Shown here: in pieces, positions 7,187-13,809 of the stretch
Layout of the letters: every line of letters starts with the position of its first letter
Numbering within the stretch: position 1 is the first letter of the stretch
Assembly: GCA_020849655.1 (NCBI GenBank)
Contig: JADLFU010000189.1
Location: forward strand, 1 to 42,439
From: Polyangiaceae bacterium
Lineage (GTDB): Bacteria; Myxococcota_A; Polyangia; Polyangiales; Polyangiaceae
DNA: 42,439 nucleotides
Reading direction: 5' to 3'
Made by a program: the position numbers and the translations under genes
Notes under the pieces: model-generated
Told to the model about the DNA's origin: nothing
Databases searched by the model: none
Seen by the model: the letters and a program-made list of their open reading frames with translations, nothing else

Positions 7187-8728
7187 TCAGACGAGCGACA
7201 GCGCCGACGCCAGCGCCACGACCGGCGCGCCCGTCGGGGTGCCCGTCTGCCAGCTGCCTCCGATGACCGACGAGCCCGCGATGTCGACGTGCAAGAAGGG
7301 CAGATCACCGCCCTCGCGCGTCCGCGCGCGCAGCCCCGAGACGATCTCGAGGAACGCCGCCGGGAACTGGTGCCCCCGCGGCGTGCGCGACGACGGCAGC
7401 GAGTTGCACGACAGCACGTCCTCGGCCGGCGATTTCGCCGCGACGAACGCGTAGTCCTCGGGGCGCAAGGACGAGCGCTCCATCGGGTCTCCGAGCTCCT
7501 CGCCCGCCCGGAGCACGGCCTCCGCGAGCGCGCGGGCGCGGCCGTTCGGGACGAGCGCGGTGAACGGCCCGTACGCGACCGCCGCGTGCCCGGTCAGCGT
7601 CGCGACGGAGAGGAGGGCCGACGCCGAGGTCGCCTCCTCGCGCAGCGCCGCGAGCAGATCGGCGAGCACGAGGCGCCCCTCCGCGTCCGTGTTGCCGACG
7701 CGCACGCGCACGCCCGCGCGCGACGTGAGGATCTCGTCGGTGACGAAGCTGTCGGAGCCGACGCTGTTCCGCACCGCGCCGAGCAGCGCGACGATCCTCA
7801 CATCCTTCGGAGCGCGCTCGGCGACGACGCGCAGCAGCCCGGCGACGGCGGCCGCGCCGCCCTTGTCGCGGCTCATGCCCGCCATGTGGCCGTCGGTCTT
7901 CAGGTCCGCGCCGCCCGTGTCGTAGACGAGCCCCTTGCCCGCGAGCAGCCACGACCGCGCCGCGTCCTTCGGGCCGTACTCGAGGCGGATGACGCGCGGG
8001 TGGTGCCGCGGCACCGCGAGGCTCGCGCGGGCCACGGCGCCGACGAGCGGGTAGCCGCGCGTGATCGCGGCCGCGTCGCGCTCGACCGAGACGGCGACGC
8101 CCGTCCCGCGGAACACCTCCTCGCAGTAGCTCGCCATCCGCTCCGGCGACATGACCTCGGGCTCGGTGCCGCCGATGTCGCGCGCGACCACGCGGCCCGC
8201 CTCGAGCGCCCGCGCGACCTCGACGCCGACGTCGGCCGCGAGGGTCACGCGGGCGGCCCGCGCGGGCCGCTCCGCGCCAGCTCGCAGCTCGTAGGGCTCC
8301 CACGCCGCGCCGAGCGCCGCGAGCGCGGCCACGAGCGGCGCCCGCGCGAAGCGAGCATCCGCGGGCGCGGCCGGCACGACGAGCAGCCGCCGCGCGCCGG
8401 CCGCGAGCGCCTGCGTCACGCCCGCGGCCGTCGCCGCGGAGATCGCCCGGACGTCCTGCTCCCACGCCGAGAGGTCCGGCGTCGTCGACAGCACCAGCCT
8501 CGCGACGGGCCCGAGCAGCGGCAGCACGGAGACGGTCCTCGACGAGGTGAGCCGCCGGTCCGCGGCCTCGGCGGCCTCGATGGCGCGCGTGAGCGGCGCG
8601 GGGAGCTCGCGCTTCGAGAGCGGCCCCTCGCCGACGACGATCACCGCGTCGTGCTCACCCCGCGCCAGCACCTCCGCGAGCGACGAGAGCGGGACGGCAT
8701 CGAGCGGGGGGACGAGCGCGGGCGACAT
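7187..8728 (-). CDS. M17 (leucyl aminopeptidase) family metallopeptidase, NPEPL1-like
   Basis: This 513-residue cytoplasmic aminopeptidase removes N-terminal residues from peptides using two metal ions. The family signature NTDAEGRLVLAD is present (D348, E350, with R352 after it), and the other ligands can be seen in GKGLVYDTGG (K265, D270) and MSRDKGGAA (D288). The YDTGG wording and the RDxGGAA motif fit the NPEPL1-like branch better than E. coli PepA. The start at ATG 8728 is chosen because the open frame further upstream (to 8893) runs through the tRNA-His promoter and gene on the other strand, which is not plausible coding. It is divergent from the tRNA. Confidence 0.85.
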   Translation of the reverse strand: MSPALVPPLDAVPLSSLAEVLARGEHDAVIVVGEGPLSKRELPAPLTRAIEAAEAADRRLTSSRTVSVLPLLGPVARLVLSTTPDLSAWEQDVRAISAATAAGVTQALAAGARRLLVVPAAPADARFARAPLVAALAALGAAWEPYELRAGAERPARAARVTLAADVGVEVARALEAGRVVARDIGGTEPEVMSPERMASYCEEVFRGTGVAVSVERDAAAITRGYPLVGAVARASLAVPRHHPRVIRLEYGPKDAARSWLLAGKGLVYDTGGADLKTDGHMAGMSRDKGGAAAVAGLLRVVAERAPKDVRIVALLGAVRNSVGSDSFVTDEILTSRAGVRVRVGNTDAEGRLVLADLLAALREEATSASALLSVATLTGHAAVAYGPFTALVPNGRARALAEAVLRAGEELGDPMERSSLRPEDYAFVAAKSPAEDVLSCNSLPSSRTPRGHQFPAAFLEIVSGLRARTREGGDLPFLHVDIAGSSVIGGSWQTGTPTGAPVVALASALSLV

Positions 8729-8791
8729 GCGCGCGACCTTCGACCGACGCGGCACCAAAAGCAACCCGCGCGCGGCCGTGATCGGGGCCGC

Positions 8792-8820
8792 TTGCGCGTC
8801 GGGCGGTGTCCTGGTACGGT
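8792..8820 (+). promoter_or_regulatory. Sigma-70-type promoter of tRNA-His
   Basis: TTGCGC at 8792-8797 and TACGGT at 8815-8820 are separated by exactly 17 nt, matching TTGACA and TAnnnT house-keeping promoter elements. The second element ends 15 nt before the tRNA 5' end. This lies outside the aminopeptidase coding region as called here. Confidence 0.55.
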
Positions 8821-8834
8821 CACGGCCCGTTTTT

Positions 8835-8911
8835 GGTGGGTATAGCTCAGCCGGTAGAGCACTGGATTGTGGATCCAGGTGTCGCGGGTTCAAGTCCCGT
8901 TACTCACCCCA
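8835..8911 (+). tRNA. tRNA-His (anticodon GTG)
   Basis: A full cloverleaf is visible: acceptor 8836-8842 pairs with 8901-8907 (one G-T pair), the D arm starts TAGCTCAG, and the anticodon stem CTGGA/TCCAG encloses the loop TTGTGGA with anticodon GTG. The variable loop is 5 nt, and the T stem GCGGG/CCCGT encloses TTCAAGT. The extra G at 8835 opposite C73 (8908) is the identity mark of histidine tRNA, and CCA is encoded at 8909-8911. The SIR2-like gene starts 25 nt after the 3' end; tRNA 3' ends are common integration sites. Confidence 0.97.
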
Positions 8912-8936
8912 AGGTCGACCCCGCGAGGCCCCCGCC

Positions 8937-9938
8937 GTGAGCCGCGCGCGGTTCACGAGAGAGGTCGGCGGCCCGCGCGCGGTGACGCTGGTGCTCGGCG
9001 CGGGCGTGTCGATCGATCGAGGTGCGCCGGCGTGGCGCGCGCTCTCTCGCGATCTCTACACCAAGGCCTTCGGCGAGGCGCCGCCCGCGCTCTCGAGCGA
9101 CGCCGCCGATCCGCTCTCCGATCCGATGGCGCTCGAGCTCGTCCGCGCGCACCTCGGCGAGGCATCGTTCGCCGCGGCGCTGCGGCGGCGCCTGTACGCG
9201 AGGAGCGGCGGGAGGTTCCGGCGGTTGCCGCCTGGCGCGACGCTCGCGGCGGTCGCCGACGTCGTCCGCGCGCAGCAGGCGTCACCGTCGCGCAGGCTGC
9301 TGCGCGTCGTGTCGTTCAACGCGGACGATCACCTCGAGCGCGAGGTGCACCGAGGCAAGGGCTGGCTGGGGGCGCCGATCGCGTGGCCGATCGCGCGCGA
9401 GAGCCAGCCGCCCCGCGCCCTCGGCAAGGGGGGGCGGCCCCCGGTGCCCGTCTACCACGTGCACGGCTTCCTCCCTCGCGACGCCGAGGGGGCGCGGCGG
9501 GCGTGGCAGGACGCGCCGGACACGCTCGTCTTCGCCGACGACGAGTACTGGGCCTCGGTCGCGGAGCCGCTGTCGTTCCCGAACCGCGTGCTCGCCGCCG
9601 CGCTGCACGACTCGGTGTGCGTGTTCGTCGGCACGAGCATGCGCGACCACAACCTCCTGCGCGGGCTCGGGCTGCGCCGCTTCGCGCACCTCCGGGACGC
9701 GAGGGCGGCCGGGCGCGGGGACGCGAGCGTCACGCGCGCGCTCGCCCGCCACTTCTGGCTCACCTCCGAGGCGCCCTCGCCGCTCGCGGAGGTGCTGGAG
9801 CGCAGGGGCGTCACCTCCGTGCTCTGCGACTGGAGGACCGGCGACGCGGCCGAGCTGCTCCGGCGCGCGCTGTTGCCGCGCGCCGTGGGCGCACATGGTG
9901 TACGACCGCCCCCGAGCGATGGGCAAGCGCGCGACTGA
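8937..9938 (+). CDS. SIR2-like (SIR2_2 type) NAD-binding protein
   Basis: This 333-residue protein starts at GTG 8937, just after tRNA-His. It has the Rossmann-type NAD pocket of sirtuin-like defence and signalling proteins: VLGAGVSIDRGAP at residues 19-31, SFNADDHLE (N128, D130) in place of the sirtuin TxNxD stretch, and YHVHGFLPR with the candidate catalytic H176. LVFADDEYW and FVGTSMRDHNLLRGL, near 198-205 and 230-244, are found in SIR2 domains of antiphage proteins such as ThsA, DSR and SIR2-HerA partners, which degrade NAD. No zinc-finger Cys are seen, so a deacetylase role is unlikely. It overlaps the following regulator by 20 nt and forms a unit with the adenine methylase. Defence function is inference. 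Confidence 0.8.
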   Translation: MSRARFTREVGGPRAVTLVLGAGVSIDRGAPAWRALSRDLYTKAFGEAPPALSSDAADPLSDPMALELVRAHLGEASFAAALRRRLYARSGGRFRRLPPGATLAAVADVVRAQQASPSRRLLRVVSFNADDHLEREVHRGKGWLGAPIAWPIARESQPPRALGKGGRPPVPVYHVHGFLPRDAEGARRAWQDAPDTLVFADDEYWASVAEPLSFPNRVLAAALHDSVCVFVGTSMRDHNLLRGLGLRRFAHLRDARAAGRGDASVTRALARHFWLTSEAPSPLAEVLERRGVTSVLCDWRTGDAAELLRRALLPRAVGAHGVRPPPSDGQARD

Positions 9939-10545
9939 TCAGCCCCCAGCGGGCGCGGACGATCGCGCGCCCCGCGTGGAGCTCGCGAAGCGCGCGCTGC
10001 TCGAGGGGGTCGGCGCGGAGGTGGCCTCGTCGTTCCCCGGCATCACGCGGCTCGGGGGGCAGATCGTCGCCGCGCTCTACCTGGCGGAGGGGCCGCAGTC
10101 GATGGACCAGCTGACGGCCGAGCTCGGCTGCGCGAAGAGCAACATCTTCGGCAACGTGCGCGGCCTCGAGGCCGCGGGGATCGTCGAGCGCCGGCGCGAG
10201 GCGGGCGCCCGCCACGACGTGTTCACGCTGCGCGGCCCGTACCCCGACGTCATCATCGGCGCGTACGTCGCGAGGCTGCGGCGGCTCGTCTACGACAAGG
10301 TCGCGCTCGCGGACCGCGCGCTCGCCCTGCTCGGCGACGAGCGAGGCCGCGACGCCGACGCCCTGCGCGGCCGGCTCACCGTGCTGCGCCGCAAGTACGC
10401 GCTGTTCGGCCGCATCTTCGAGCGCGTGCTGCCCGCGATGGAGGGCCCGATCGATCTCGAGGACCTGCTGTCGCGCGTGCCCTCCGGCGTGTTCGACGCC
10501 CTCGCGCGGCTCGGGCGCGCGCTCCCGAAGAGGCCGACCAGATGA
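9919..10545 (+). CDS. GbsR/MarR-type winged-helix regulator
   Basis: This 208-residue protein starts at ATG 9919 (an in-frame ATG at 9895 is possible; neither has a clear ribosome-binding site). Residues about 35-105 form a winged helix of the GbsR branch of the MarR superfamily: a helix FPGITRLGGQIVAALYL, the PQSMDQLTAEL helix, the recognition helix CAKSNIFGNVRGLEAAGIV, then the wing ERRREAGARHDVFTL. The C-terminal half is helical and probably dimerises. It overlaps the SIR2 gene by 20 nt and the methylase by ATGA, so it is the middle gene of a coupled three-gene unit. It may repress the unit or act as its sensor. Confidence 0.78.
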   Translation: MGKRATDQPPAGADDRAPRVELAKRALLEGVGAEVASSFPGITRLGGQIVAALYLAEGPQSMDQLTAELGCAKSNIFGNVRGLEAAGIVERRREAGARHDVFTLRGPYPDVIIGAYVARLRRLVYDKVALADRALALLGDERGRDADALRGRLTVLRRKYALFGRIFERVLPAMEGPIDLEDLLSRVPSGVFDALARLGRALPKRPTR

Positions 10546-11353
10546 GCGTCACCGAGGTCGATCGCGCCGGGCACCCGTTCTGGAAGTGGGTGGGAGGCAA
10601 GCGCCAGCTGCTCTCGCGCCTCGTGCCGATGGTGCCCGCGCGCTTCGGGCGCTACCACGAGCCCTTCATCGGCGGCGGCGCGCTCTACTTTGCGCTCGGC
10701 CCGCGGCACGCGACGATCGCTGACTCGAACACTCGCCTCGTGCGCACGTACCGTGGGGTGCAGGGACACGTGGACGAGGTCATCCTCCGGCTCTCGGGCC
10801 TGTCGAACGACCGCGAGACCTTCGAGCGCGTGCGCGCGAGCGACGTCGACGCGATGTCCGACGCGGGCGTGGCCGCGTGGCTCGTCTACCTCAACAAGAC
10901 GGGTTTCAACGGCCTGTACCGCGTCAACTCGCGCAACATCTACAACGTGCCCTTCGGCGCGATGACGAAGCCGAACATCTGCGACGAGCGGCGGCTGCGC
11001 GCGTGCGCGGCGCAGCTCGCGACGACCGAGATCCTCGACGCCGGGTTCGAGACGGTGCTCGACCGCGCGTCGAAGGGCGATTTCGTGTACTTCGACCCGC
11101 CGTACGTGCCCCTGTCGACGAGCTCGATGTTCGTCAGCTACACGAAGGACGGCTTCGGCATGGACGACCAGCGGCGGCTCGTCGAGGTGGCGGCGACGCT
11201 GAAGCGCCGCGGCGTGCACGTGCTCCTGTCGAACTCCGCCGCGCCCGCGGTGTACGAGCTGTACCGAGGCTTCGAGATCGAGGAGGTGGAGCTGCAGCGG
11301 CTCGTCGGCGCGAAGTCCTCGAGCCGCGGCGCCATCAAGGAGCTCTTGATCCG

Positions 11354-11357
<4 letters not shown>
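10542..11357 (+). CDS. Dam/DpnM-type DNA adenine N6-methyltransferase (D12 class)
   Basis: This 271-residue methylase transfers a methyl group from SAM to adenine N6, in this class usually within GATC. The motifs run in alpha order: KWVGGKRQLL (residues 15-24, motif X), EPFIGGGALYF (40-50, SAM-binding motif I), LNKTGFNGLYRVN (117-129, typical of Dam/DpnM), and the catalytic DPPY at 185-188. Length matches Dam (about 275). No restriction endonuclease is adjacent, so it is either an orphan methylase or the self-marking component of the SIR2/GbsR unit it overlaps (ATGA at 10542). Its TAA stop overlaps the convergent acidic-protein stop. GATC specificity is an expectation, not shown. Confidence 0.9.
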
Positions 11358-12579: not shown

Positions 12580-13809
12580 ATGAAGCTCACCACGCCCCCC
12601 GCGCGCACCTGGACCATCGACGCCTGCACCTCCGGCGGCACCAGGCGCGTCGGACTGTCGGAGGGCGAGTCGATCGTGGTCGGCTCGTCGCCGCGCAACG
12701 ACATCACGGTCGAGGCGCCCGGGGTCGCGCCGCGCCACTGCCGCATCGGCGTCGAGGACGGCGCGCTCGTCGTGCGCGATCTCGGCGCGCTCGGGGTGTA
12801 CGGCGGCGGCGGCGCGTGGGTGCAGGAGGCCCGCTTCGGCGACGACGGCACCTTCGCGATCCCGGACACGCTGTTCGTGTGCGCGCCCTTCCTCGTCGAC
12901 GCGCCCGACGCGGGCGACGAGCGACCCCTCGACGGCGTCGTCGGCGACAGCGCGCCGATGCGGCGGCTCGCGCGGCAGGTGCGCAGGTACGCGCCGCTGC
13001 GCGCCTCGGTGCTCATCCGAGGCGAGACGGGATCGGGCAAGGAGCTGGTCGCGGCGGCGCTCCACGCCGAGAGCGCGCGGGCCGACCGGCCCTTCGTCCC
13101 GCTCAACATGGGCGCCCTGCCGCCGGAGCTCGCCGACTCGGAGCTGTTCGGCCACGAGCGCGGGGCGTTCACCGGCGCCGTCGCGCAGCGGCGTGGCGCG
13201 TTCGAGGCCGCGGGCGCGGGGACGCTGTTCCTCGACGAGATCGGCGAGCTCCCGCTGTCATGTCAGGCGAAGCTGCTGCGCACGCTCGAGTGCGGCGAGG
13301 TGCGCCCGCTCGGCGCGTCGGGCCTGCGCCGCGCCGAGGCGCGCGTGGTGGCGGCCACGTGGCAGTCGCTCTCGGCGCGCGTCGCGGAAGGATCGTTCCG
13401 CGAGGATCTCTACCACCGGCTCGCGGTGCTCACCGTCGACGTGCCCCCGCTGCGCGAGCGGCGCGCCGACCTGCCCGCGCTGGCGCGGCTGTTCCTCGGC
13501 GCGCTGGAGCCGGACGTGGGGCCGAAGCAGCTCCACCCGTCGACGCTCGCGCGCCTCGGCCAGTACGCCTTCCCCGGGAACGTGCGCGAGCTGAAGAACC
13601 TCCTCCTGCGCGCGGCGCTCGCGGCCGAGGGGCGCGTCATCCGCCCGGTCCACCTGCAGCTCGGCGTGGAGTCGGCGCCGCGACGCCCCGCGACGCCGCA
13701 CGAGCGCACCCGCCAGATCGTCGAGCGCCACGGCGGCAACGTCACGCGCACCGCGAGGACGCTCGGCGTCTCCCGCACCACCGTCCGCCGCTGGCTGGCG
13801 CGGGCGTGA
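12580..13809 (+). CDS. FHA-domain sigma-54-dependent transcriptional activator
   Basis: This 409-residue enhancer-binding protein is controlled by phosphothreonine rather than by a receiver domain. Residues about 25-105 are an FHA domain (VVGSSPRNDITVEAPGVAPRH has the GR/S..H core). The AAA+ domain spans 118-345, with Walker A GETGSGKE at 148-155, the sigma-54 contact loop GAFTGA at 195-200, Walker B LFLDE at 216-220 and FPGNVREL near 331. A Fis-type helix-turn-helix closes the protein (HGGNVTRTARTLGVSRTTVRRW, split across 384-405). An ATG (12580) is preferred to the GTG 36 nt upstream. FHA activators of this layout are a myxobacterial speciality and would be driven by a Ser/Thr kinase such as those in this window. 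Confidence 0.9.
   Translation: MKLTTPPARTWTIDACTSGGTRRVGLSEGESIVVGSSPRNDITVEAPGVAPRHCRIGVEDGALVVRDLGALGVYGGGGAWVQEARFGDDGTFAIPDTLFVCAPFLVDAPDAGDERPLDGVVGDSAPMRRLARQVRRYAPLRASVLIRGETGSGKELVAAALHAESARADRPFVPLNMGALPPELADSELFGHERGAFTGAVAQRRGAFEAAGAGTLFLDEIGELPLSCQAKLLRTLECGEVRPLGASGLRRAEARVVAATWQSLSARVAEGSFREDLYHRLAVLTVDVPPLRERRADLPALARLFLGALEPDVGPKQLHPSTLARLGQYAFPGNVRELKNLLLRAALAAEGRVIRPVHLQLGVESAPRRPATPHERTRQIVERHGGNVTRTARTLGVSRTTVRRWLARA

Follow-up and report, generated by a model that had tools for sequence, protein, structure and literature searches.

Locus and gene content

Behind a tRNA-His gene of a Polyangiaceae bacterium lie, closely packed and on the same strand, genes for a SIR2-like protein, a GbsR/MarR-type winged-helix regulator and a Dam-type DNA methylase. 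The question raised by this locus is whether the three genes form a dedicated antiphage system or a local neighbourhood of genes with separate histories. The window, by which the whole stretch of analysed DNA is meant, comprises 42,439 nucleotides (contig JADLFU010000189.1), and the features concerned are the following:

7187-8728, minus strand: M17 leucyl-aminopeptidase-type gene, flanking the cluster divergently and found in synteny in the congener (Pfam PF00883)
8836-8911, plus strand: tRNA-His, anticodon GTG, with CCA encoded at its end (ARAGORN; 100% identity in the congener)
8937-9938, plus strand: SIR2_2-domain protein, probable NADase, 333 aa, GTG start (Pfam PF13289, alignments, model)
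9919-10545, plus strand: GbsR/MarR-type winged-helix regulator, 208 aa, ATG start (Pfam MarR_2)
10542-11357, plus strand: Dam-family DNA adenine N6-methylase, 271 aa, with DPPY and FIGGG motifs (TIGR00571)

The GTG start of the SIR2 gene at 8937 is 25 nt downstream of the CCA of tRNA-His. The SIR2 and GbsR genes overlap by 20 nt, and the GbsR and Dam genes overlap by the sequence ATGA. This layout had been proposed in a first-pass annotation and is confirmed by the coordinates, except that the locus was there taken to begin at 8792, 44 nt ahead of the tRNA gene; the remaining coordinates, up to 11357, are correct. The first gene downstream of Dam is on the opposite strand. The cluster neighbours in the Pfam family scan include the M17 peptidase and an Hsp20 protein, and no neighbouring defence system was found around the cluster. 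At 12583-13809 the window also holds an FHA and sigma-54 activator gene, in which the PADLOC matches to RtcR/CARF cover the AAA+ and HTH parts only.

Conservation within the genus

The sole other genome of the genus that was compared (G377, MAG KLAP97, CAUJFL010000057.1, loci L024/L045) has the identical order of M17 peptidase, tRNA-His, SIR2, GbsR and Dam, which shows that the arrangement is not due to chance. Apart from the invariant tRNA, identity to this congener is 80% for M17, 79% for SIR2, 82% for GbsR and 76% for Dam. The SIR2 start codon, the reading frames and the ATGA overlap of GbsR and Dam are kept in the congener. The spacings differ, with 19 nt between the tRNA and SIR2 and a 12-nt gap instead of an overlap between SIR2 and GbsR, and the tight gene packing is preserved in both species.

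The synonymous divergence of the two species is about 0.5 changes per site. The dN/dS values against the congener, which are rough values from NG86 as implemented in Biopython, are 0.27 for SIR2, 0.29 for GbsR, 0.47 for Dam and 0.31 for M17, and each of SIR2, GbsR and Dam is under purifying selection. The synteny together with these ratios indicates that the cluster is old within the genus and that each of its genes has been maintained. Selection on the association of the genes is poorly testable because the cluster is known in two genomes only.

The SIR2 protein

Encoded in a lineage-specific cluster, the protein is a divergent newcomer to the SIR2_2 family. Against a Pfam cut-off of 24.5 bits for SIR2_2 it scores 24.1 bits in the protein scan and passes with 25.6 bits in the genome scan, and its counterpart in the congener scores 28.9 bits. 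Its motifs are LVLGAGVS (18-25), FNADD (N128, D130), YHVHGF (H176) and GTSMRDHN (232-239). Two alignments of SIR2 relatives show that the GAG(V/T)S, N-x-D, HG and G-x-S-x-x-D motifs are kept and that N128, D130 and H176 do not vary in any aligned relative, as the first-pass annotation had anticipated for these pocket residues. By motif they appear to correspond to the catalytic residues N112/D114/H152 of ThsA and N133/D135/H171 of DSR2 (PMC11263360). At the position between N and D, the two species with the cluster have Ala129 and the other relatives have Ile or Phe. In DSR2 and ThsA this residue is Tyr, and the Y134A substitution lowers the activity of DSR2 (PMC11263360). The NADase activity of the SIR2 protein may consequently be weak.

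The fold was compared using a second AlphaFold model of moderate confidence (pLDDT 61.5, pTM 0.68), a first model with pLDDT 45.7 having been set aside. The best matches are the antiphage sirtuins ThsA (Z 19.1, rmsd 4.3, 265 residues), KomC (Z 18.8, rmsd 3.6, 259 residues) and DSR2 (Z 18.5, rmsd 4.8, 260 residues), whereas canonical sirtuins, Sirt5 among them, reach a Z of about 13. The protein is complete. The SIR2 fold covers nearly the whole 333-aa chain, and no sensor domain is attached. The earlier assignment of the domain to the NAD-degrading antiphage type is thus supported by the fold matches and by N128, D130 and H176. A shared fold does not prove function; that the protein acts in defence as an NADase is a reasonable guess, with the reservation that Ala129 takes the place of the pocket Tyr.

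None of the known SIR2 systems compared is reproduced at this locus. KomC of Kongming, another domain-only SIR2 protein (PMC12948488), is likewise a short stand-alone SIR2 NADase and matches the fold over its full length, but the two proteins are only 14-15% identical and neither KomA (deaminase) nor KomB (HAM1) is encoded beside the SIR2 gene here. ThsA of Thoeris has the SIR2 domain with the corresponding catalytic N, D and H, but the window protein lacks its C-terminal SLOG or macro domain, and there is no TIR gene for a ThsB partner among the cluster neighbours scanned. The SIR2 domain fold and N133/D135/H171 of DSR2 are also conserved, but DSR2, like DSR1, has about 1000 aa with a large C-terminal sensor, and its Y134 is replaced by Ala129. 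The HerA ATPase of SIR2-HerA (Nezha) is absent among the neighbour families. By family and description the protein can also be likened to vertebrate FAM118A/B, which are domain-only proteins of Pfam SIR2_2 (PMC12700824).

Distribution of the three genes

A search with the single SIR2 sequence found the gene in 3 of 377 genomes of the phylum, including the one in the window. The other two proteins are 36-39% identical, and at their loci (L042 and L043, the two closest from outside the genus) no GbsR or Dam gene adjoins the SIR2 gene. A survey of the family gave close matches in two of 108 genomes. With a four-sequence profile, matches were obtained in 25 of the 377 phylum genomes, mostly short and weak ones to other SIR2 domains, and in 3 of the 108 family genomes. 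Plasmid and phage collections gave two weak plasmid matches and no phage match. SIR2 domains in viral contigs are only 23-28% identical and have N-terminal extensions. Two of these contigs (L180, 2515-3840, and L182, 2536-3876) encode SIR2_2 proteins of about 445 aa in which the extension looks TIR-like; they are possibly TIR-SIR2 fusions. In another locus (L138, 4915-7959, G390:C332) a distant SIR2_2 protein adjoins an apparent double KaiC/RecA-like ATPase gene, and a Dam-nuclease pair is found about 18 kb away on the same contig.

The GbsR protein scores 27.4 bits for MarR_2 (cut-off 27). It does not qualify as a CudC/GbsR choline regulator, with 24 bits for NF047500 against an equivalog cut-off of 218. 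Its relatives are single-copy genes in 45 of 108 family genomes, and among the loci examined they are never next to a SIR2 gene outside the genus. Recurrent neighbours in the family, named by eye from sequence, are a membrane protein, a zinc-ribbon protein and a thioredoxin-domain protein. A DNA methylase adjoins GbsR at one of about 34 loci outside the genus. This locus, from another genus (L039, 6341-7821, minus strand, G393:C504), has a different methylase gene (N6_N4_Mtase, PF01555), which shares an ATGA with the start of a gene of the same GbsR family.

The methylase matches TIGR00571 with 241 bits (cut-off 114.85) and MethyltransfD12 with 179.4 bits. The closest solved structure is DpnM (2dpm, E 9e-66), and E. 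coli Dam (2g1p) has an E of 3e-30. The target-recognition stretch GLYRVNS/NVP[FY]G is common to DpnM and the window's Dam-family methylase, which probably acts on GATC. GATC sites number 296 in the window against 293 expected from trinucleotides. Dam-family genes were found in 55 of 59 relatives, where they have other neighbours; outside the genus neither SIR2 nor GbsR was near Dam in the loci examined.

Members of the window's Dam clade are 54-61% identical. In three cases (G383, G387 and G390; 56-59% identical to the window's protein) a gene for a PDDEXK_11 nuclease of 130-140 aa begins 3-4 nt downstream of Dam. These pairs (L137, 5379-6641; L140, 6943-8179; L145, 6291-7541) form a compact restriction-modification unit in Myxococcota that is possibly GATC-specific. 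The window's Dam differs from them in having no nuclease, and no DpnII-type nuclease lies beside it, unlike DpnM. No homologue of the PDDEXK_11 partner was found in G000. Other clade members are solitary, among them the closest Dam from outside the genus (L049, G289). A restriction-modification system was therefore rejected for this locus, since the cognate endonuclease is absent (G000) and the next downstream gene is on the other strand.

The independent distribution of SIR2, GbsR and Dam shows that the trio is confined to one genus and that its members have separate histories. The three genes had been expected to recur as neighbours in related genomes; this is true within the genus, in the congener, and fails beyond it. 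No paper that connects SIR2 to either GbsR or Dam in bacteria came up in the literature search.

The tRNA-His gene and expression of the cluster

The position behind tRNA-His had suggested integration at this tRNA, with a direct repeat of its 3' end beyond the cluster. No second copy of the 3' end with up to 3 mismatches is present in the window, no integrase gene was found in the cluster by the Pfam scan, and the GC3 of the cluster, 0.93-0.96, is like that of its neighbours. With the old synteny in the congener, these results led us to abandon integration as the origin of the cluster. In a relative (L088, G196:C261) an ORF starting MAARRKKGAGTVEFRAGVAYARVTLPDGRR, tyrosine recombinase-like by eye, overlaps the region of the tRNA-His 3' end on the other strand, which likely represents integration at this tRNA. 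The site thus seems usable for integration, and its use is not indicated here.

A scan found no promoter-like or terminator-like site on the plus strand. The silence of the promoter scan means little because the promoter of the tRNA itself was also missed. Read-through from the tRNA-His promoter would be the simplest source of expression, since 25 or 19 nt is too short for a usual promoter and there is no terminator-like site. In the region preceding the tRNA, conservation between the two genomes is low outside the tRNA leader. Their comparison revealed no conserved operator there, and the congener lacks the GATC at 8780. Control of SIR2 by methylation or by the winged helix, as suggested in the first-pass annotation, is not borne out by the short spacing, the poor upstream conservation and the unshared GATC; no positive evidence for such gating was obtained.

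Interpretation

The explanation we consider somewhat more probable than all others together is a genus-specific, vertically inherited cluster, probably expressed by read-through from tRNA-His, that consists of a solitary SIR2_2 NADase, a resident GbsR regulator and an orphan DpnM/Dam-type methylase. The cluster would be transcribed together with the tRNA. The SIR2_2 enzyme might be expressed constitutively and be autoinhibited or monomeric until an infection cue triggers it, probably through oligomerisation by analogy with ThsA, KomC and DSR2. Once triggered it would most likely hydrolyse NAD+, and the depletion of NAD+ would serve defence. The GbsR/MarR protein would be a single-copy resident regulator that came to lie downstream of SIR2 and may have its targets elsewhere. 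The adenine methylase would be a family resident that now lies downstream, with no cognate nuclease here. A counterpoint to this explanation is that both species keep the genes tightly packed and retain the ATGA overlap, which would also fit a functional unit.

Such a unit, in which the GbsR protein and the state of Dam methylation gate a NAD-consuming SIR2 effector, is favoured by the close packing, by the effector-type fold of SIR2 and by the methylase overlapping the same GbsR family in G393. It is very improbable in view of the independent distribution of the three genes, the absence of a conserved operator in a poorly conserved upstream region, the GATC missing in the congener and the single methylase among about 34 GbsR loci. 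In the loci examined outside the genus GbsR and Dam lack SIR2 and stand apart from each other, which speaks against a dedicated trio, and because the genes occur apart elsewhere a local gene neighbourhood is likelier than a new three-part defence machine. A three-part system is therefore unproven and, on present distribution data, unlikely. Its most specific form, one defence unit in which the winged helix reads lost or absent adenine methylation of DNA and thereby unleashes a NAD-destroying sirtuin driven by the tRNA promoter, is extremely improbable. The Dam genes that precede PDDEXK_11 and the absence of that nuclease from G000 could also point to a degenerate restriction-modification system that lost its PD-(D/E)XK partner, with the SIR2 NADase as the present killing arm against unmethylated DNA. 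However, the nearest Dam outside the genus is solitary itself, a DNA-binding domain is missing from the SIR2 protein, and SIR2 and Dam are separated by the GbsR gene; we regard this history as highly improbable.

A mobile defence cassette inserted at the 3' end of tRNA-His would agree with the position of the cluster and with the recombinase-like ORF in G196, but it is already largely refuted by the missing repeat and integrase, by the native GC3 and by the same position in two species so far diverged, and is quite improbable. It is unlikely, but less so, that the SIR2 protein is a housekeeping or signalling enzyme that processes NAD or binds ADP-ribose. The gene is chromosomal and vertically kept with no defence genes nearby, Ala129 replaces the active-site Tyr, and in vertebrates the SIR2_2 proteins FAM118A/B show modest NAD processing that may serve signalling (PMC12700824). 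Against this, its patchy presence in the single-sequence search is typical of accessory genes, and antiphage sirtuins are its best fold matches.

The evidence for a three-part system is thin, and the main value of the analysis is in identifying GbsR and Dam as ordinary residents of family genomes. If the SIR2 protein is an active NADase, it would add to the antiphage sirtuins a divergent SIR2_2 member that consists of the domain only and has an unusual Ala within the catalytic Asn-Tyr-Asp motif, and possibly an effector that is expressed by read-through of a tRNA gene.
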